Shown here piece by piece: positions 1,384-28,705 of a DNA stretch of 64,000 nt; the stretch's first letter is position 1; each line of letters begins with the position of its first letter. Position numbers and translations under genes: made by a program. The notes beneath the pieces are model-generated. The model had not been told where the DNA came from. It was given only the letters and a program-made list of their open reading frames with translations, and made no database searches. The stretch is from Flavobacteriales bacterium (GTDB lineage Bacteria > Bacteroidota > Bacteroidia > Flavobacteriales_D > Crocinitomicaceae), in the NCBI GenBank assembly GCA_022361195.1, contig JAKSBJ010000352.1, positions 1-64,000 of the forward strand. Direction: 5' to 3'.

Positions 1384-1390
1384 ACTTTTG

Positions 1391-1465
1391 GGTGGAAGAT
1401 GGGATTCGAACCCACGGCCCTCGGAACCACAAACCGATGCTCTAACCAACTGAGCTACAACCACC
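1391..1465 (-). tRNA. tRNA-His (anticodon GTG)
   Basis: The minus strand folds as a tRNA with D stem GCTC/GAGC, T arm GTGGG-TTCGAAT-CCCAT and a seven-base anticodon loop TTGTGGT carrying GTG, which reads His codons. The acceptor begins GG and ends CC, matching the extra G-1:C73 pair of tRNA-His. No CCA is encoded. Three positions are odd: apparent U-U oppositions at acceptor pairs 5:68 and 6:67 and at anticodon-stem pair 31:39. The gene has its own promoter and terminator, so it is probably expressed, but the mismatches leave open that the 3' half was replaced by integration or that the gene has decayed. Confidence 0.88.
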
Positions 1466-19670: not shown

Positions 19671-20903
19671 TTAAAACAGTTCCCAGAAATTAGGGAAACT
19701 TTTTCTAACAGCTTCTGATTCATTGACTTCTATTCCTGATTCGGTTAATGTAGCTGCAATTGCCCCCATCATGGCTATTCGATGGTCATTGTGAGAGTCA
19801 ATTGTTGTGCTCTTGAGTTTTGCCTTTCCAAAAATGAACATTTCATCTTCTTGTAACTCCACTTTTAAAGCCATTTTTGCTGCTTCGGACTGAATGACAG
19901 TTGCACGATTACTTTCTTTATGAACTAGTCGTTTACATCCTTTTATAATGCTTGTACCTTTAGCAGCAGCTGCCATTATCACCAAGGGAGGAAAGAGGTC
20001 TGGACAATCATTTGCATCAAATTCAAAGTAAGTTAATGTAGTGGGTAAAATGTGAAGTGTTTCACCTTCCCATTCGTATTTACCACCAGCCAAATGGAGT
20101 GCATCTAAAATGGCTTTATCACCTTGTACAGATTGGGGAGAAAGTCCTTGAATGGAAATCCCATTTTGAATAGCTCCCAAAACAACAAAGTTCGCCATTC
20201 CACTATAATCACCTTCTACTTTTATTCGTTTTGGGGTTTGGTAGACTTGCCCTCCTTTGATGTAAAAAGTTTGGTAATTATCATGACGAATTTGAATTCC
20301 GAATTGGTTCAACACATCCAATGTAATATCCACATAGGGACGGCTTTTGAGATTGGAAACTTCAATAACCGAATCTTCATTTAAAAGAGGAAGTCCCATT
20401 AATAATCCACTGAGATACTGCGAACTTTTTTGACCATCAAACAAAATTTCACCTCCTTTGGCTTTTCCTTTAATTTGAAGCGGAATAAAACCATTTTCAG
20501 ATTGAAAATTCACCTGTAATTGATTCATTATTCCTTCAAATTCAATCATTGAACGAGAAGCTAAACTCCCTTTTCCTTCAATGCGAAAATCACCACCAAT
20601 ACAAGCCAAAACATTCACTAAAAGTCGAATTCCAAGTCCTGATTCACCAATATTTAACTCAGCTGCTGCAGGAAAGTTACTGGGAATTACTTCCAGGGAT
20701 CCATTTCCCTTTTTATGACATTCTACACCTAAATCTCTTCCAATTTGAATAAGATGATTAATATCTTCATTCTCTCCAATGGCTTCAATAATCGTTGGTT
20801 CAGATGAAAGAACTGCGGCTAAAAAAATACGCTGAGCATAGCTTTTTGATGGAGGTGCGATGACCTGGTCTATTTGTGTTTGATTGGAAACGTGATGTAC
20901 CAT
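19671..20903 (-). CDS. aroA: 3-phosphoshikimate 1-carboxyvinyltransferase (EPSP synthase)
   Basis: A 410-residue enzyme of the shikimate pathway joining phosphoenolpyruvate to shikimate-3-phosphate. The N-terminal phosphate-binding loop PPSKSYAQRIFLAA (residues 17-30), the GESGLGIRLL motif, SSQYLSGLLMGLP, DYSGMANFVVLGA, ANDCPDLFPPLVIMAA, LVHKESNRA and DSHNDHRIAMMGAI are in family order. The stop of aroG overlaps its start by one base (TAATG), so the two are translated together. It is under the same attenuator as aroG. Confidence 0.97.
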   Translation of the reverse strand: MVHHVSNQTQIDQVIAPPSKSYAQRIFLAAVLSSEPTIIEAIGENEDINHLIQIGRDLGVECHKKGNGSLEVIPSNFPAAAELNIGESGLGIRLLVNVLACIGGDFRIEGKGSLASRSMIEFEGIMNQLQVNFQSENGFIPLQIKGKAKGGEILFDGQKSSQYLSGLLMGLPLLNEDSVIEVSNLKSRPYVDITLDVLNQFGIQIRHDNYQTFYIKGGQVYQTPKRIKVEGDYSGMANFVVLGAIQNGISIQGLSPQSVQGDKAILDALHLAGGKYEWEGETLHILPTTLTYFEFDANDCPDLFPPLVIMAAAAKGTSIIKGCKRLVHKESNRATVIQSEAAKMALKVELQEDEMFIFGKAKLKSTTIDSHNDHRIAMMGAIAATLTESGIEVNESEAVRKSFPNFWELF

Positions 20904-21961
20904 TAACCGTTCATGATTTTAGTTTGATGACGAATGGATTCCTGGTGAATGGCCGAAAGATATTTCTCTACAAATTTGTCTGATAAAGCAAACTCTTTGG
21001 ACATTTCTTGATGCAGATGTTTAATTTGAGCCCAACGTTCAGGTTGTAAAATAGTCATGTTATTCTTCTTTTTGAAACGTCCAACTTCATTGGTGATCTC
21101 CATTCGGGAGGCAATTAATTTCATCAAATCACGGTCAATCTCATCAATCTTCTGTCTCAATTCACTTAAATTCTTAGTAAAAACGGGATCATCAACCTGT
21201 TCATTTCTCAGAACCAATCTACTTACCAATTCGCCCAAGTCTGACGGTAAAATTTGTTGCTTGGCATCACTCCAGGCTTCATCAGGATTGAGATGAGATT
21301 CAATCATTAATCCATCATAAATAAGATCAATAGCCTTTTGGGAAACTTCCAGCAAAATGTCCCTTCTTCCGCAAATATGTGATGGGTCACAAATCAGTTT
21401 TACTTCAGGAAAAACACGTTTTAAGGCCAATGGAATTTCCCACATGGGTTCATTACGGTATTTGTCTGATTTGAAAGATGAAAATCCGCGGTGGATGGCA
21501 TGAACTTCATTAATTCCTGCCCGATAAAATCGTTCAATAGCACCTATCCATAAATTTACATCCGGGTTGATAGGGTTTTTAATCAAAACTTCAATGTTAT
21601 CAACTCCTTTCAATGAATCTGCAATTTCCTGAACTGTAAAGGGGTTAACAGAAGTACGAGCTCCAATCCATAATCGGTCAAATCCGGCTTTTAGTGCTTT
21701 CTCAACATGAGATGAGTTTGCAACTTCAGTAATAACAGGAAGATCAGTTTCTTTTCCAGCATTTACCAACCATTCCAATCCCACTTCACCAACTCCCTCA
21801 AAAGAATCAGGACGTGTTCTGGGCTTCCAAATTCCAGCCCTCAAAATATTAACCTTTCCGGTTGCTTTTAGCAATTTGGCTGTTTCAATAACCTGATCTT
21901 CGGTCTCTGCGCTGCAGGGGCCTGAAATAATGATCGGTCGTTGCATTTCTCTCAATTTCAT
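20903..21961 (-). CDS. Bifunctional 3-deoxy-7-phosphoheptulonate synthase / chorismate mutase
   Basis: A 352-residue fusion. The DAHP synthase domain (about 1-260) shows RPIIISGPCSAET, ILRAGIWKPRTRPDSF, LWIGARTSVNPF and CDPSHICGRRDILLEVS. The C-terminal AroQ-type chorismate mutase domain (about 265-350) has the helical pattern LRQKIDEIDRDLMKLIASRMEITNEVGRFKKKNNM. It condenses PEP and erythrose-4-phosphate, and also turns chorismate to prephenate. The start is ATG 21961; an upstream ATG at 21991 lies in the loop of a terminator hairpin and would add 10 residues. It heads the aroA operon and is preceded by an aromatic-rich leader ORF. Confidence 0.95.
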   Translation of the reverse strand: MKLREMQRPIIISGPCSAETEDQVIETAKLLKATGKVNILRAGIWKPRTRPDSFEGVGEVGLEWLVNAGKETDLPVITEVANSSHVEKALKAGFDRLWIGARTSVNPFTVQEIADSLKGVDNIEVLIKNPINPDVNLWIGAIERFYRAGINEVHAIHRGFSSFKSDKYRNEPMWEIPLALKRVFPEVKLICDPSHICGRRDILLEVSQKAIDLIYDGLMIESHLNPDEAWSDAKQQILPSDLGELVSRLVLRNEQVDDPVFTKNLSELRQKIDEIDRDLMKLIASRMEITNEVGRFKKKNNMTILQPERWAQIKHLHQEMSKEFALSDKFVEKYLSAIHQESIRHQTKIMNG

Positions 21962-21973
21962 AATTTCTTCTTC

Positions 21974-22000
21974 AAAAAAAAAGTCTCCCATTGGGAGACT
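21974..22000 (-). terminator. Attenuator terminator of the aroG-aroA operon
   Basis: On the minus strand AGTCTCCC pairs with GGGAGACT (8 bp, 3-base loop) and runs into 8-9 T, 13 bases before the aroG start codon. A terminator inside the 5' leader points to attenuation. The left arm CTCCC can also pair with GGGAG at 22028-22032, giving an antiterminator. Confidence 0.8.
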
Positions 22001-22034
22001 CTTCTAATGTATATTTTGATCACAAACCTCCCTG

Positions 22035-22054
22035 CTGATTATTAGAATAACCAG
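22035..22054 (-). promoter_or_regulatory. Leader hairpin overlapping the end of the aromatic leader ORF
   Basis: On the minus strand CTGGTTAT pairs with ATAATCAG (8 bp with one G-U, 4-base loop). It covers the last Trp, Leu and Phe codons and the stop of the leader ORF, so a ribosome stalled at those codons would disrupt it. This is the expected 1:2 hairpin of an attenuator. The pairing was read by eye. Confidence 0.55.
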
Positions 22055-22089
22055 TTCCAGTGAAATTTGTTTGTACTTAATCGTTGCAT
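22042..22089 (-). CDS. Aromatic leader peptide of the aroG-aroA operon
   Basis: A 15-codon ORF, MQRLSTNKFHWNWLF then TAA, within the leader of aroG. Four of its last seven residues are Phe or Trp (FHWNWLF), as in phe and trp leader peptides, and an intrinsic terminator lies 42 bases beyond its stop. Starvation for Phe or Trp would stall a ribosome here. The ATG is only about 8 bases after the -7 element, so the mRNA could be nearly leaderless. Confidence 0.7.
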   Translation of the reverse strand: MQRLSTNKFHWNWLF

Positions 22090-22096
22090 CGTGCTA

Positions 22097-22104
22097 CAAA
22101 TCTA
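22097..22104 (-). promoter_or_regulatory. -7 element of the aroG-aroA promoter
   Basis: The minus strand reads TAGATTTG here, an exact TAnnTTTG match, a few bases before the leader ORF ATG at 22089. No clear -33 TTTG is at the usual distance. Confidence 0.45.
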
Positions 22105-22215
22105 TGCAGAAAAGCTAAATAATTTTAAAAAGTTGAAATAAAACAAAAAAATCAATTCTTTTCTTATTGAAAAACAAGGTGTTATAGTGTTTGTCTGAAA
22201 AAAGTTTCAATTTTT

Positions 22216-22250
22216 TTTTTGGATAATTAAAAATAAATTCAAAAGATTTG
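22216..22250 (+). promoter_or_regulatory. Candidate trp operon promoter
   Basis: AAGATTTG at 22243-22250 has seven of eight bases of TAnnTTTG, and a T-rich -33 region ending TTTGG at about 22218-22222 lies about 20 bases upstream. A start near 22257 would give a leader of about 30 bases before the Trp-rich ORF. Confidence 0.45.
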
Positions 22251-22288
22251 TTGCGCAAAGACGGTTAGTTTTATTCCGTCCTTTTCAG

Positions 22289-22351
22289 ATGAAAACAAGA
22301 ATGTTAAATACAAATTGGTGGTGGTCTACTCGCAGTTGGTGGGTGGATTAG
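22289..22351 (+). CDS. trpL: Trp operon leader peptide
   Basis: A 20-codon ORF, MKTRMLNTNWWWSTRSWWVD followed by TAG, 91 bases before trpE. Five of 20 codons are TGG, in blocks of three and two. A second in-frame ATG at 22301 gives a 16-residue form. The following bases form an 11-bp hairpin that encloses the Trp codons and then an intrinsic terminator, the classic layout of ribosome-mediated attenuation: lack of charged tRNA-Trp stalls the ribosome, frees the 3' leader arm and lets trpE be transcribed. The sequence evidence is very strong; regulation itself is inferred. Confidence 0.9.
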   Translation: MKTRMLNTNWWWSTRSWWVD

Positions 22352-22362
22352 CAATTTGTATT
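22307..22362 (+). promoter_or_regulatory. Leader hairpin 1:2 of the trp attenuator
   Basis: AATACAAATTG at 22307-22317 pairs perfectly with CAATTTGTATT at 22352-22362 (11 bp), enclosing all five Trp codons. The 3' arm can instead pair weakly with ACAAA and GCT at 22375-22384, which lies in the terminator left arm and would act as antiterminator. Confidence 0.7.
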
Positions 22363-22376
22363 CCTAGATAATTAAC

Positions 22377-22415
22377 AAACGGCTTATCGTACTCACGGTA
22401 AGCCGTTTTTCTTTT
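22377..22415 (+). terminator. Attenuator terminator of the trp operon
   Basis: AAACGGCTTA pairs with TAAGCCGTTT (10 bp, extended by U-G and two C-G pairs to 13), six-base loop, followed by a T-rich run. It lies 28 bases before the trpE ATG, inside the operon leader. Confidence 0.9.
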
Positions 22416-22442
22416 CCCTTAACTCAAGTAAAATTTCAAAAA

Positions 22443-23819
22443 ATGAAAAAAATATACAGTAGACAAAAACACTTTTTAAGTGACACATTAACGCCAATAG
22501 CTGCTTTTCTCAACCTAAGAGATAAGTACATTTCAACTTCCTTATTTGAGAGTTCAGATTACCATAGTCGCAGTAACAGCAAGTCTTTCGTAGGTTGTGA
22601 CCCTCTTGTACGTTTAAAGGTCCATCAAGGTGAGGTAGAGATTATGGAAGAGAATCAATTGGTGGAGAATTTTAGTTTGGAGGGAGAAAGCCAATTGGAA
22701 AAACTCTTTTCTGATTATGAGTTTATTCATTCTGAATCAGCAGCCTTGAATGGTTTTTTTGGAGTTTTTGCTTATGACTCAGTAGGTTATTTTGAGGAGA
22801 TAAAACTAAACTCTAATGATGAGTTAGCTGAGGTATTTTTTGTGATCTATCGCTATTTATTGGTCTTTGACAATTTTAAAAATACAGCTACAGTTATTGA
22901 GAATTCATTGAATCCGGAGAGTTTTTTAGGAACTGAGGATTTCATCGCTCAAACCTTCAAACGTCAAAAACATCTAAATGCTTTTCAAACAATTGGAGAG
23001 AAGCAAAGTAATATGGAGGACGAAGAATTGGCCACTATTATTTCTCAGGCCAAGGAAAATGTAGCGAGGGGAGATGTTTTTCAATTGGTTGTTTCCCGAA
23101 AATTTAGCCAGCAGTTTAATGGAGACGAGTTTGAAGTCTACAGGCAGTTAAGAGCTTTAAATCCATCACCATATCTCTTTTTCTTTGATTTGGAAAAGGC
23201 CAAATTGTTTGGTGCTTCACCTGAGGCTCAGTTTAAAGTATTTGACGGAATGGCAGAGATTAATCCCATTGCCGGAACGGTGAAAAGAAGCGGTAAAGCA
23301 GAGGTAGATGCTGAATTATCCCGTCAATTGGCAGAAGATGTAAAAGAGAATGCTGAGCACACAATGCTGGTAGACCTGGCCCGAAATGATCTTAACAAAT
23401 TTTGTTCAGGAGTAAAGGCCGAAACTCTTAAAGAAATCCAGGAGTTCTCTCATGTCATTCACATGGTCTCTAAGGTGCGAGGTAAACTAGAAAATTTCTC
23501 ACCAATTACAGCTTTTGGAGGTTCTTTTCCAGCAGGAACCTTAAGTGGAGCTCCAAAGTTTAAAGCCATGGAACTCATTAATCAATACGAGAAAGATCCC
23601 AGAACCTATTACGGAGGAGCTATTGGACACATTGCAGCAAATGGAGATGTGAATATGGCCATTGTCATCCGTTCTTGTCTCAGCCGAAATGGACTATTGG
23701 AATATCAGGCTGGGGCCGGAATTGTAATGGATTCGGTGATTGAGAATGAAGTGGCCGAAGTGGAGAATAAAGTCAGAGTAATCAACAGAGCTATTGAGCT
23801 CGCAAACCACATAAAATGA
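22443..23819 (+). CDS. trpE: Anthranilate synthase component I
   Basis: A 458-residue enzyme making anthranilate from chorismate with ammonia supplied by TrpG. The N-terminal region has SLFESSD, matching the LLES feedback motif that binds tryptophan. The chorismate-binding C-terminal domain has GDVFQLVVSRKF, PIAGTVKRSG, HTMLVDLARNDL, FPAGTLSGAPKFKAMELI, RTYYGGAIGHIA and QAGAGIVMDS in order. Length is a little shorter than typical. It is first in a seven-gene operon and overlaps trpG by four bases (ATGA). It is regulated by the upstream attenuator and probably by direct tryptophan inhibition. Confidence 0.98.
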   Translation: MKKIYSRQKHFLSDTLTPIAAFLNLRDKYISTSLFESSDYHSRSNSKSFVGCDPLVRLKVHQGEVEIMEENQLVENFSLEGESQLEKLFSDYEFIHSESAALNGFFGVFAYDSVGYFEEIKLNSNDELAEVFFVIYRYLLVFDNFKNTATVIENSLNPESFLGTEDFIAQTFKRQKHLNAFQTIGEKQSNMEDEELATIISQAKENVARGDVFQLVVSRKFSQQFNGDEFEVYRQLRALNPSPYLFFFDLEKAKLFGASPEAQFKVFDGMAEINPIAGTVKRSGKAEVDAELSRQLAEDVKENAEHTMLVDLARNDLNKFCSGVKAETLKEIQEFSHVIHMVSKVRGKLENFSPITAFGGSFPAGTLSGAPKFKAMELINQYEKDPRTYYGGAIGHIAANGDVNMAIVIRSCLSRNGLLEYQAGAGIVMDSVIENEVAEVENKVRVINRAIELANHIK

Positions 23820-24418
23820 AAATCATCTTAATCGATAATTATGATTCGTTTACCTTTAATTTGAGGGAATTACTGAATCGTTTTGAAACAGACGTGACGG
23901 TTGTCAGGAATGATAAATTTGATCCTGCGGACCTTTACAGATACGACGCCATTATTATATCTCCAGGCCCAGGAAAACCTTCTGAGTCGGGTTTTATCAA
24001 AGAAGTTATTAGACGTTATCACAGTACTAAACCCATTTTAGGAATTTGTTTGGGAATGCAGGCAATTGCTGAAGAGTTAGGTGGAGAACTCAATTATTTA
24101 GATAAGCCCGTACACGGTTTGGCATCTGAAATAGAACACAATGGAGACGAAATTTTTAAAGGAGTTTCAAATCCTTTTGAGGTGGGAAGGTACCATTCTA
24201 TTGTAGTCAATGAAAATTCCTTACCGCTCAATATTAAACCTATTTCCATTGGTCCAAATAGCATCTTGATGGGGATTCGTTTACAAAACTTCCCGGTTTA
24301 TGGTCTTCAATTCCATCCCGAATCTATCCTAACTCCTCAAGGGGAGCAAATAATTGCCAATTTCTTAAACATCGCAAAAAACAGACTTCATGAAAAAGTT
24401 ATTAGACAAGCTGTTTAG
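23816..24418 (+). CDS. trpG: Anthranilate synthase component II (glutamine amidotransferase)
   Basis: A 200-residue class I glutamine amidotransferase supplying ammonia to TrpE. IDNYDSFTFNLRELL at the N-terminus, ISPGPGKPSESG, the nucleophile Cys in GICLGMQAIAEELGG and the His-Glu pair in LQFHPESILTPQG are all present. It overlaps trpE by four bases and trpD by 29. Some homologues also serve aminodeoxychorismate synthase; the operon context supports the Trp role. Confidence 0.97.
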   Translation: MKIILIDNYDSFTFNLRELLNRFETDVTVVRNDKFDPADLYRYDAIIISPGPGKPSESGFIKEVIRRYHSTKPILGICLGMQAIAEELGGELNYLDKPVHGLASEIEHNGDEIFKGVSNPFEVGRYHSIVVNENSLPLNIKPISIGPNSILMGIRLQNFPVYGLQFHPESILTPQGEQIIANFLNIAKNRLHEKVIRQAV

Positions 24419-25385
24419 GCATGAAAATCTCGAAGAGGAAGAAGCAGCTGAATTGTTATCGGCTATTGTGAATGAAGAAGCGAATGATGCTCAAATTGTG
24501 GCTGCTATTTCATGCATTTTAATGCGTTCGATTACCGAAAAAGAAGTCCAGGGATTTAGAAATGCACTTTTAGAGAGGGCCATTGTTCCATCTTCTTTGC
24601 CAAAGGAGGCCATTGATGTTTGTGGAACTGGTGGAGATGGAAAAAATACTTTCAATATTTCAACCTTAAGCGCAGTTGTTATTGCCGGAGCGGGATACCC
24701 AGTGATTAAGCATGGAAATTACGGCGCTTCTTCGCATTGTGGATCATCAAATTTGTTGGAGGCGATGGGGTATCGTTTTCATGATCAGGATCAGCAGTTG
24801 AATCGTCAGTTGGCAAAATCGAATTTGGTGTTTTTACATGCACCACTGAATCATCCTTGTCTCAAGCGTTTAGCGCCTATCCGAAAAGATCTGGGAATTA
24901 GAACCTTTTTCAACTTTCTTGGTCCACTGGTGAATCCGGTACAACCTCATTTTCAATTAACCGGAGTATTTGATTTGAAAGTAGCCCGTATTTATAAATC
25001 AGTGCTACAAAATCAGCGACAAAATTTTGCTATTGTCCATTCGCTAGATGGTTATGACGAAGTAAGTTTGACCTCTCCTTTTAAGTTTTTATCCCGTCAA
25101 TCTGAAGAATTAATTTATCCGGGAGAGTATGGGATTGAACCTTTAAATCCGGTTGATCTTCACGGAGGAACCACCATCTTGGAAGCTCAGGAAATCTTTG
25201 AAAAGGTGTTGAATGGATATGGAACTAAAGCCCAAAATGAAGTGGTTTTGACCAATGCTGCTATTGGAATTCAGTGTGTGAATGGGGAATTGAATTTTAA
25301 CAAAGCTCGAGAAGAAGCTCTTAAATCATTAATGGATGGGAAAGCACTAAAAAGTCTGCAATCTACCATCGAATTATCAAAATAA
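24390..25385 (+). CDS. trpD: Anthranilate phosphoribosyltransferase
   Basis: A 331-residue enzyme that moves phosphoribosyl from PRPP to anthranilate. The diagnostic CGTGGDGKNTFNIST (about residues 77-91), GNYGASSHCGSSNLLEAMG and RKDLGIRTFFNFLGPLVNP motifs are present and the helical N-terminal domain is complete. The 29-base overlap with trpG is real: the ATG at 24390 is within trpG and precedes LLDKLFRHENLEEEEA, the normal TrpD N-terminus. Confidence 0.97.
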   Translation: MKKLLDKLFRHENLEEEEAAELLSAIVNEEANDAQIVAAISCILMRSITEKEVQGFRNALLERAIVPSSLPKEAIDVCGTGGDGKNTFNISTLSAVVIAGAGYPVIKHGNYGASSHCGSSNLLEAMGYRFHDQDQQLNRQLAKSNLVFLHAPLNHPCLKRLAPIRKDLGIRTFFNFLGPLVNPVQPHFQLTGVFDLKVARIYKSVLQNQRQNFAIVHSLDGYDEVSLTSPFKFLSRQSEELIYPGEYGIEPLNPVDLHGGTTILEAQEIFEKVLNGYGTKAQNEVVLTNAAIGIQCVNGELNFNKAREEALKSLMDGKALKSLQSTIELSK

Positions 25386-25392
25386 GTTAGAC

Positions 25393-26169
25393 ATGAAACT
25401 GTTAAAACAAATTATTGCAGATAAAAAATTGGAAATAGAGCGGCAAAGAGAAAAAATGCCTGTCTCTCAACTGACCACGCTACCTACCTTTGACCGAAAG
25501 TGCCATTCTTTGGCGAGGTCAATTAAAGAAAACTCAGGAATCATTGCTGAATTCAAACGAAAGTCACCTTCGCATGGTGATTTTCAAAAAAGAGAGCTGA
25601 AAGAAGTGGTTGACTTTTACGAAAAAGCAGGAGTTTCGGGAATTTCTGTTCTGACCAACCAAACTTACTTTGGAGGATCAATGCTCGACCTTCAAACAGC
25701 TCGGTCAAAGACCAATTTACCCATTTTGCAAAAGGATTTTATTGTCGATGAATATCAATTGTTTCAAGCCAAGTCTGCTGGTGCAGACGCTATTTTACTC
25801 ATCGCAGCCATTTTGGACGATTATTATTCTGAACATTTGGCTTGTATTGCACAATCAATTGGTTTGGAGGTGCTAATGGAGTTTCACTCAGCAGAGGAGA
25901 TTGATCATTACAATGAGTATGTAGATATCGTTGGGATTAACAATCGGAATTTAGATAGTCTTAAAGTAGATGTAGAAATGTCTAAACAACTTTATGTCGA
26001 GTTACCGCGAAATGTGGTCAAAATCAGTGAAAGTGGAATAGGGGAGGTTGATCAAATTCAGGCCCTTTCTTCTTTAGGGTATGATGGTTTTTTAATTGGA
26101 GAATCTCTTTTAAAAAATCCCGAATTGCTGAATGATTTGGAGGCCTCGTTAATACCTAAACTGTTGTAA
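25393..26169 (+). CDS. trpC: Indole-3-glycerol-phosphate synthase
   Basis: A 258-residue TIM-barrel enzyme that closes the indole ring. Motifs in order: IIAEFKRKSPSHGDF (catalytic Lys), VLTNQTYFGG, LPILQKDFIVDEYQL, ADAILLIAAIL, EVLMEFHSAEEI, VGINNRNLDSLKVD, VVKISESGIGEVDQI and GFLIGESLLKNP. It is not fused to TrpF as in E. coli; trpF is a separate gene 1 base downstream. Confidence 0.98.
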   Translation: MKLLKQIIADKKLEIERQREKMPVSQLTTLPTFDRKCHSLARSIKENSGIIAEFKRKSPSHGDFQKRELKEVVDFYEKAGVSGISVLTNQTYFGGSMLDLQTARSKTNLPILQKDFIVDEYQLFQAKSAGADAILLIAAILDDYYSEHLACIAQSIGLEVLMEFHSAEEIDHYNEYVDIVGINNRNLDSLKVDVEMSKQLYVELPRNVVKISESGIGEVDQIQALSSLGYDGFLIGESLLKNPELLNDLEASLIPKLL

Positions 26170-26170
26170 G

Positions 26171-26800
26171 ATGAAAGTAAAAGTTTGCGGTTTAACCGAA
26201 AAACGGAATATCCACCAATTGCTGCAGCAAAGGATCGATATGATGGGGTTGATTTTTTATGAGCAATCAGCTCGGATGATTCACTCTAATTCCGAATTAC
26301 AAAATTGGATTGCGGGACTTCCAATTTCTAAAGTGGGTGTTTTTGTCAATGAAACCACGGAGGTCATTTTACAAAAGGTAAAAGATTTTCAGTTGGATTT
26401 TGCACAGTTGCATGGCAATGAATCGCCTGAACAGATAAAAGAATTATCCTCTAAAATAAAGATCATCAAGGCTTTTTCAGTTCATGATGATTTTGATTTT
26501 GAACAATGTTTGCAATATATGCATGCCAGTCTGTTTCTGTTTGATACAAAAGGAAAAATGGCAGGAGGAAATGGCATTAAATTCAATTGGGAAGTTTTAG
26601 AAAAATACAAAGGAAAAACACCTTTTCTGTTGAGCGGAGGAATTCATTTATCGGACGTAATTGAAATTAAAAAACTAGAACATCCAATGCTCTATGGAGT
26701 GGATTTAAACAGCGGATTTGAACTTCGTCCGGGAATTAAAAATGGACGGATTATTCAACAATTTATTCAAGAACTAAAACGAAAAGATTATGCTTATTGA
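26171..26800 (+). CDS. trpF: Phosphoribosylanthranilate isomerase
   Basis: A 209-residue TIM-barrel enzyme converting N-phosphoribosylanthranilate to the carboxyphenylamino-deoxyribulose form. The N-terminal [14 protein letters not shown] has the catalytic Cys, and the later strands [34 protein letters not shown] and [27 protein letters not shown] (catalytic Asp region) fit the family. It overlaps trpB by 11 bases. Confidence 0.97.
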
Positions 26801-27947
26801 TGAACATGGTTTTTATGGTGAATATGGAGGAGCTTATATTCCGGAAATGCTTCATCAACCAGTTGAAGAGCTTAAAAAGGCCTTTGATTCTTACAAAGAG
26901 GATAAAACATTTGAAGCAGAGTATTTGCAGTTGTTGAAAGACTACGTTGGGCGTCCAACTCCCTTGTATAAAGCCGAAAATCTGTCCACTAAATATGAGG
27001 CGGAGATTTATTTAAAGCGAGAAGATTTAAATCACACCGGAGCTCATAAAATCAACAACAGCATAGGTCAGGTCTTATTGGCTAAGCGAATGAACAAAAA
27101 ACGCATTATAGCTGAAACCGGAGCTGGTCAACATGGTGTTGCAACTGCTACAGCCTGTGCTTTGATGGGATTAGAATGCAAGGTATTTATGGGGGAAATG
27201 GATATCAAACGACAAGCACCAAACGTTAGTCGAATGAAAATGTTGGGAGCAGAGGTGATTCCAGCTTCATCGGGAAGTAAAACACTCAAAGATGCTACCA
27301 ATGAAGCCATTCGTTATTGGATTAATAATCCGGATACTTTTTACGTGATTGGCTCGGTAGTAGGCCCTCACCCTTATCCTCAAATTGTGGCTCATTTCCA
27401 GTCAATTATTAGTAAAGAAATGAAACAACAATTCAAGGCAATTCAAAGACAACCAGAGGTGATTATTGCTTGTGTAGGAGGAGGGTCGAATGCGGTTGGA
27501 GCATTTTATCATTACTTGAATGATCCTGTTAAATTACTGATTGCCGAAGGTGGAGGAAAGGGACTGGATAGTGGATTGTCTGCAGCTACTTCAGTTTTAG
27601 GTACAGATGGAATAATTCATGGTAGCAAGACGATTTTAATGCAAGACGAAAATGGCCAAATTACGGAGCCTTATTCCATTTCGGCCGGATTGGATTATCC
27701 TGGAATCGGACCTTTACATGCTCATTTGATTAAATATCAGAGGGTGGAGAGTTTTTCGATAACAGACGAGGAAGCTTTAACAGCAGCTCAACAATTAGCC
27801 AAAATGGAAGGGATTATTCCTGCTTTGGAATCGGCTCACGCATTGGCTACCCTCGAAAAAGTGGATTTAAAAAACAAATGTGTGGTCATTAACCTCTCCG
27901 GACGAGGAGATAAGGATTTGGAAACGTATATCTCAAACATCTCATGA
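26790..27947 (+). CDS. trpB: Tryptophan synthase beta chain
   Basis: A 385-residue PLP enzyme joining indole and serine. The PLP lysine is in [15 protein letters not shown], and [62 protein letters not shown] and [14 protein letters not shown] follow. This is the TrpB1 type that pairs with TrpA. It overlaps trpF by 11 bases and trpA by four (ATGA). Confidence 0.98.
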
Positions 27948-28705
27948 AAAAGCGTATAAAACAGTTATTTGATCAAAAGGAAAAAGGGATTTGTTCCATT
28001 TTTATAACAGCCGGTTTTCCTGAAAAGGAGTCACTTTTAAATCTGGTTCCACTTTTAGATAAAAATGGAGTAGACTTAATTGAAATTGGAATCCCTTTTT
28101 CAGACCCTTTGGCTGATGGAACTACAATTCAGCAATCTTCAGAAGTGGCCTTGAAAAACGGAATGAACCTCTTGCTGTTGTTTGAGCAATTGAAAGAGTT
28201 GAGAAAGAGTACTGAAGTTCCTATTGTTTTAATGGGCTATTTTAACCCTATTTTTCAATTTGGACTGGAAGCTTTTTTGGAACGATGTCAGCAAGTTGGA
28301 GTGGATGGGGTAATCATCCCGGATGTTTCTTTTGAACTCTATCATTCGCACTATGAGGTTTTGTTTGAACAATTTGAAGTTCCGTTAATCTTTTTAGCTT
28401 CAGCGAATAATCCTGAACGAATTGTACAAATTGATCAAAAGAGTAAAGCCTTCATTTATTTACTTTCTTCAGCCTCAATTACAGGAAAACAAAATACATT
28501 TTCAGCGGAGCAGTTGGATGCTTTTAAGGATGTTAGAGAATTAAACCTAAAATCCCCTGTTTTGCTTGGATTTGGAATTCATAATAGAGAGACAGTTAAG
28601 ATTGCTCATCATTATTTTGAGGGATCAATTATTGGTTCTGCTTTTATTCGGGCTTTAGAAAATAAGAAGCCTGTTCAGGAATTTTTACAGCAAGTAGGAT
28701 ACTAA
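27944..28705 (+). CDS. trpA: Tryptophan synthase alpha chain
   Basis: A 253-residue TIM-barrel enzyme releasing indole from indole-3-glycerol phosphate. The catalytic Glu is in [16 protein letters not shown] and the catalytic Asp in [22 protein letters not shown] and GFGIHNRE phosphate-site motifs follow. It is the last gene of the operon, followed after 4 bases by a strong terminator. Confidence 0.98.

Follow-up and report, generated by a model that had tools for sequence, protein, structure and literature searches.

Does the short, tryptophan-rich open reading frame (ORF) ahead of trpE in this Flavobacteriales genome control the trp operon through a translating ribosome, as in the trp attenuator of E. 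coli? A first-pass annotation of the window (the whole stretch of 64,000 nucleotides analysed here; features lie on its forward strand unless stated otherwise) had noted the ORF, an 11-bp hairpin and a T-tailed terminator, all before trpE, and this observation as a whole is confirmed. On the basis of its anatomy, its phylum-wide conservation, its spacing and a switch model, we consider it highly probable that the element is an attenuator of the trp operon worked by the translating ribosome, which would turn the operon on when tryptophan is scarce.

The operon downstream of the leader is a complete trpEGDCFBA. Its first gene, trpE (22443-23819), has its best NCBIfam match to TIGR00564 (anthranilate synthase component I), below the curated cut-off, and it is followed by trpG, trpD, trpC, trpF, trpB and trpA (23816-28705), each with an NCBIfam match. 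Next to the trp operon and divergent from it lie aroA and a gene for a fusion of DAHP synthase with chorismate mutase (19671-21991, reverse strand), so that genes for chorismate and for tryptophan form a cluster. A single tRNA gene was found in the window, for tRNA-His (anticodon GTG; 1390-1464, reverse strand).

The leader ORF MKTRMLNTNWWWSTRSWWVD (22289-22351) has, as first noted, 20 codons of which five specify Trp, and a Trp-rich ORF is kept in relatives. The true start is either 22289 or an alternative in-frame start at 22301. Three Trp codons (TGGTGGTGG, 22316-22324) form the predicted main stall site and two more follow at 22334-22339; the stop codon occupies 22349-22351, with 91 nt from its end to trpE. 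As a bare word, TGGTGGTGG is common everywhere in a pattern search of 296 genomes, and is uninformative. Upstream, at 22266-22273, we find a candidate -7 promoter box, TAGTTTTA, with one mismatch to the Bacteroidota consensus TAnnTTTG and located 50 nt ahead of the first Trp codon. The consensus itself occurs upstream of the leader at 98 of 154 loci, against an expectation of 10.8; most of these copies lie 30-54 nt ahead of the first Trp codon. A hairpin at 22260-22280 was considered as part of the element and dropped, as the likely promoter box places most of it outside the transcript.

RNA folding, which the first-pass annotation had proposed as a check, gave -54.2 kcal/mol for the leader RNA (22257-22480), far better than shuffled sequences (z = -3.67; as good in 0 of 200 shuffles). 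The hairpin that encloses the Trp codons (1:2) has exactly the 11 pairs claimed for it, between segment 1 (22307-22317) and 22352-22362, plus an inner extension; across 152 leaders, the 1:2 region has a mean z of -2.45. Segment 2 (22339-22362) comprises both the 3' arm of this hairpin (22352-22362) and the 5' arm of the predicted antiterminator (22339-22359). Segment 3 (22375-22396) provides the 3' arm of the antiterminator, and part of it (22377-22388) doubles as the 5' arm of the intrinsic terminator 3:4 (22377-22415), which consists of a stem at 22377-22408 and a T tract at 22406-22415. This is the single terminator-like site found within 22000-22500, where 0.2 would be expected. The earlier placement of the T-tailed terminator 28 bases before trpE holds for the end of the tail (about 28 bases); the stem ends 34 bases before the gene.

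The terminator helix is supported by covariation: in an alignment of 12 sequences, changes on both sides are seen in 8 of 12 pairs and 93% of the cells are paired, with all slid controls under 60%. The terminator including its loop (AACGGCTTATCGTACTCACGGTAAGCCGTT, 22378-22407) is identical in one relative (L004), whose TrpE is only 52% identical. The motif GGCTTrTC recurs in many leaders across the phylum, probably due to a need to pair in two folds.

The antiterminator had initially been described as weak, a description that does not stand. With a ribosome on any codon of the WWW run and the RNA folded up to the terminator loop, we predict 18 pairs (22339-22359 with 22375-22396) of about -15.6 kcal/mol, which would leave almost none of the terminator's 5' arm free; the TTTGT/ACAAA and AGC/GCT pairings recognized earlier are the lower part of this helix. 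A ribosome at the second pair of Trp codons (22334-22339) is predicted to leave only this short lower part, with eight pairs (-4.4 to -4.0 kcal/mol), and a ribosome at the stop codon to cover those eight pairs too. Once segment 4 has been made, the terminator is predicted to be the more stable fold, and antitermination would therefore have to be kinetic.

These features suggest the following course of events, in which we infer the translation of the leader ORF, the stalling and the change in transcription. RNA polymerase would start just upstream and make the leader, with a ribosome following through the short ORF. If charged tRNA-Trp is ample, the ribosome would reach the stop codon (22349) and cover segment 2, leaving segment 3 free to form the terminator (22377-22408), which would halt transcription before trpE. 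If Trp-tRNA is scarce, the ribosome would stall on the Trp run (22316-22324), segment 3 (22375-22396) would pair with segment 2 (22339-22359) as it emerges, the terminator would come too late and trpEGDCFBA would be transcribed.

The first-pass annotation had suggested looking for a conserved Trp-rich ORF before trpE in related genomes, and we identified it nearly everywhere. We collected trpE loci from three sets: relatives, named GTDB genomes and a phylum-wide draw. A Trp-clustered ORF precedes trpE at 13/13 loci of family and order relatives, at 78/79 named Bacteroidota loci (77 if L079, which is doubtful, is left out) and, among phylum-sample genomes with a TrpE match at E <= 1e-80, to which this count applies, at 63/65 loci. 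One of the two exceptions in the latter set is L163, where trpE follows the apparent end of trpB; as trpE is not the first gene of its operon there, a leader would be expected elsewhere. Nearly all of the Trp leaders in the three sets also carry a terminator, and almost every trp operon sampled from Bacteroidota has such a leader. The peptides themselves differ (NTNWWWNSL, NNTWWWNNLRQTS, NKYWWWHTNSKRGL, KSIWLWWGNTFLC, FTWAWFWFNK) with the Trp cluster constant. One group of loci (L037, L045, L056, L060, L070, L077, L078, L080 and L081) encodes a near-invariant peptide, SIWLWWGNTFLC, at a far greater distance from trpE than other loci (about 280-360 nt), and L070 has a second terminator between leader and trpE.

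Spacing within the element is conserved as well. Terminators were searched 40-170 nt past the first Trp codon and retained at 45-95 nt; within these limits, the distance from the first Trp codon to the terminator, which is the distance that a stalled ribosome would measure, is 67.5 +/- 6.1 nt in 152 leaders (61 nt in the window and 60 nt in E. coli trpL). In the same leaders the stop codon lies 31.5 +/- 7.0 nt from the terminator, and the distance from terminator to trpE varies widely (61 +/- 48 nt). Sequence and comparison together show the ORF, the two hairpins and the alternative helix, as well as conservation of the spacing and of the element across the phylum.

In the switch model, the RNA under a ribosome waiting either at the first Trp codon (Trp position) or at the stop codon (stop position) is masked, the remainder is folded up to the terminator loop, and the readout is how unpaired the 5' arm of the terminator is. 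With the approximations of this model (simple fold energies, and masks that reach 13 nt past the beginning of the codon at which the ribosome waits), the arm is on average 39% unpaired for the Trp position versus 73% for the stop position, compared to 50% versus 59% for shuffled spacers. The difference between stop and Trp positions is larger than the mean of the shuffles for 138 of the 152 leaders (Wilcoxon p = 4e-24); in a non-redundant set, analysed because related leaders are not independent, this is true of 57 of 63 (p = 2e-11). E. coli trpL, the positive control, gives 38% versus 99% and the leader of the window 27% versus 60%. Ranked against shuffles, the leader of the window reaches 0.88-0.95, a moderate switch score, and for some leaders from Lutibacter the model predicts little switching.

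What kind of element is this? The features of a trp attenuator can be recognized in the window: a short ORF in which Trp codons cluster, located ahead of a trp gene, an intrinsic terminator between this ORF and the first gene and, in silico, a mutually exclusive antiterminator that a ribosome stalled at the Trp codons would free and one at the stop codon would hide. The element is not new, but the Bacteroidota form of the E. coli trp attenuator, already described as the Bacteroidete tryptophan peptide leader RNA (Rfam RF01692, 'Bacteroid-trp'; Weinberg et al., 2010; PMC2864571). That coupling is not a given in this phylum had been raised at the outset; the novelty which this implied was only partly right, as the Bacteroidetes leader RNA has been described since 2010. 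A Bacteroid-trp element has been cited upstream of the trp operon of Flavobacterium psychrophilum (PMC6414381), and leader-peptide attenuation has been inferred before amino-acid operons of that organism (PMC9723704). In the literature that we searched, we came across no experiments that test attenuation in Bacteroidota.

The window aligns to RF01692 over its full length (1-131) with 33.6 bits (E 0.017-0.027), which is under the curated cut-off of 49 bits. Like RF01692, it comes from this phylum, is located before the trp operon, has a leader with Trp codons inside a hairpin and carries the conserved GGCUUrUC that starts the terminator; unlike in RF01692, its Trp codons form two clusters, WWW and WW, and its spacer is shorter. 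Judged by anatomy and position in the sequence, it is the same kind of element as Bacteroid-trp, though by the Rfam cut-off not a listed member. The trpE leaders of some relatives do pass the cut-off, that of L006 from the same family just (49.9 bits) and others with 73-88 bits. Overall, few genomes have a match that reaches the cut-off (6 of the 99 from the phylum and 1 of the 59 relatives), a much smaller number than that of the leaders recognized by ORF plus terminator. The enteric model RF00513 (Trp_leader) did not detect the window (17.6 bits against a 41-bit cut-off). The window shares with E. coli trpL a leader peptide with adjacent Trp codons, the terminator and antiterminator folds and the behavior in the model. 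It differs in its five Trp codons (two in E. coli), its Bacteroidota-type promoter box and the distance from stop codon to terminator (42 nt, versus 25 nt in E. coli). Matches to the mir-299, RUF1 and L20_leader families in the window, mostly on the terminator hairpin, are below their cut-offs and were rejected.

Other readings of the locus have to be weighed against the conservation and spacing described above. AT-rich spacers can yield short ORFs at random, and the hairpin might then be a plain terminator behind Trp codons that occur by chance. Yet 75 of the 79 named loci, all read in the correct orientation, have a WWW-type ORF upstream of trpE, shuffles of those regions have none, and the spacing between Trp run and terminator is nearly constant; we regard this explanation, to which we would give almost no credence, as already refuted by the conservation of the sequence across the phylum. 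A related matter is what would sense tryptophan, since a terminator and an antiterminator alone do not tell the sensor. Selection of the fold by a Trp-binding RNA or protein instead of the ribosome seems extremely unlikely: such a sensor has no need of a conserved run of Trp codons at a fixed distance from the terminator, and Bacteroid-trp was listed as cis-regulatory and not as a switch (Weinberg et al., 2010; PMC2864571).

It is also conceivable that the peptide itself matters, either acting in trans, as reported for a Trp leader peptide of Sinorhizobium meliloti (PMC7298713), or by boosting trpE translation through reinitiation, which has been proposed for leader peptides of many phyla including Bacteroidetes (PMC4833913), with attenuation being secondary. 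Within groups, the residues that follow the WWW are conserved (HTNSxRGL and NNLRQTS, for example), as might be expected if the peptide has a function, but their codons overlap the antiterminator segment and RNA pairing can explain the conservation. Moreover, the terminator sits between leader and trpE, and in the window the leader ORF ends 91 nt before that gene. We consider this explanation very unlikely. Ribosome-mediated attenuation in response to Trp, the reading proposed initially, is by far the best supported by the anatomy, conservation, spacing and switch model.

A similar leader is found before another operon of this genome. Its hisG (L178, G000:C219, reverse strand of the locus) is preceded by a His leader, MRNRQLHHHHLHTGPQASRR, followed by a T-tailed terminator. 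The layout is the same as that of the Trp leader, with His as the predicted amino acid sensed; the first His codon lies 67 nt before the terminator and the model predicts a switch as in the trp leaders. A His-rich leader ORF precedes hisG at all 19 loci examined (this genome and 18 related ones from the family and order), and the six loci that were scanned gave no Rfam match at gathering score. For a leader of ilvB, we obtained a weak match only, with no gene over the cut-off.

A more speculative extension, that we think has only a small chance of being right, is that the WWW and WW clusters may give a graded response (a stall at WWW freeing the 18-pair antiterminator, and one at WW only its short lower part) and that the phylum may use leader-peptide attenuation generally, at least for its trp and his operons. 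If true, Bacteroidota ribosomes would have to follow RNA polymerase closely.

What is new here is modest: a divergent member missed by Rfam, the near-universality in the phylum, the fixed spacing and the His counterpart. A known but little-studied element appears to be far more common before Bacteroidota trpE than the Rfam model detects, with a distance from first Trp codon to terminator near that of E. coli. Bacteroidota lack Shine-Dalgarno sequences (PMC6847099). As these leaders are nearly universal before trpE and have an E. coli-like distance from first Trp codon to terminator, they may serve as natural reporters of whether ribosomes in Bacteroidota trail RNA polymerase at a distance short enough to govern termination.
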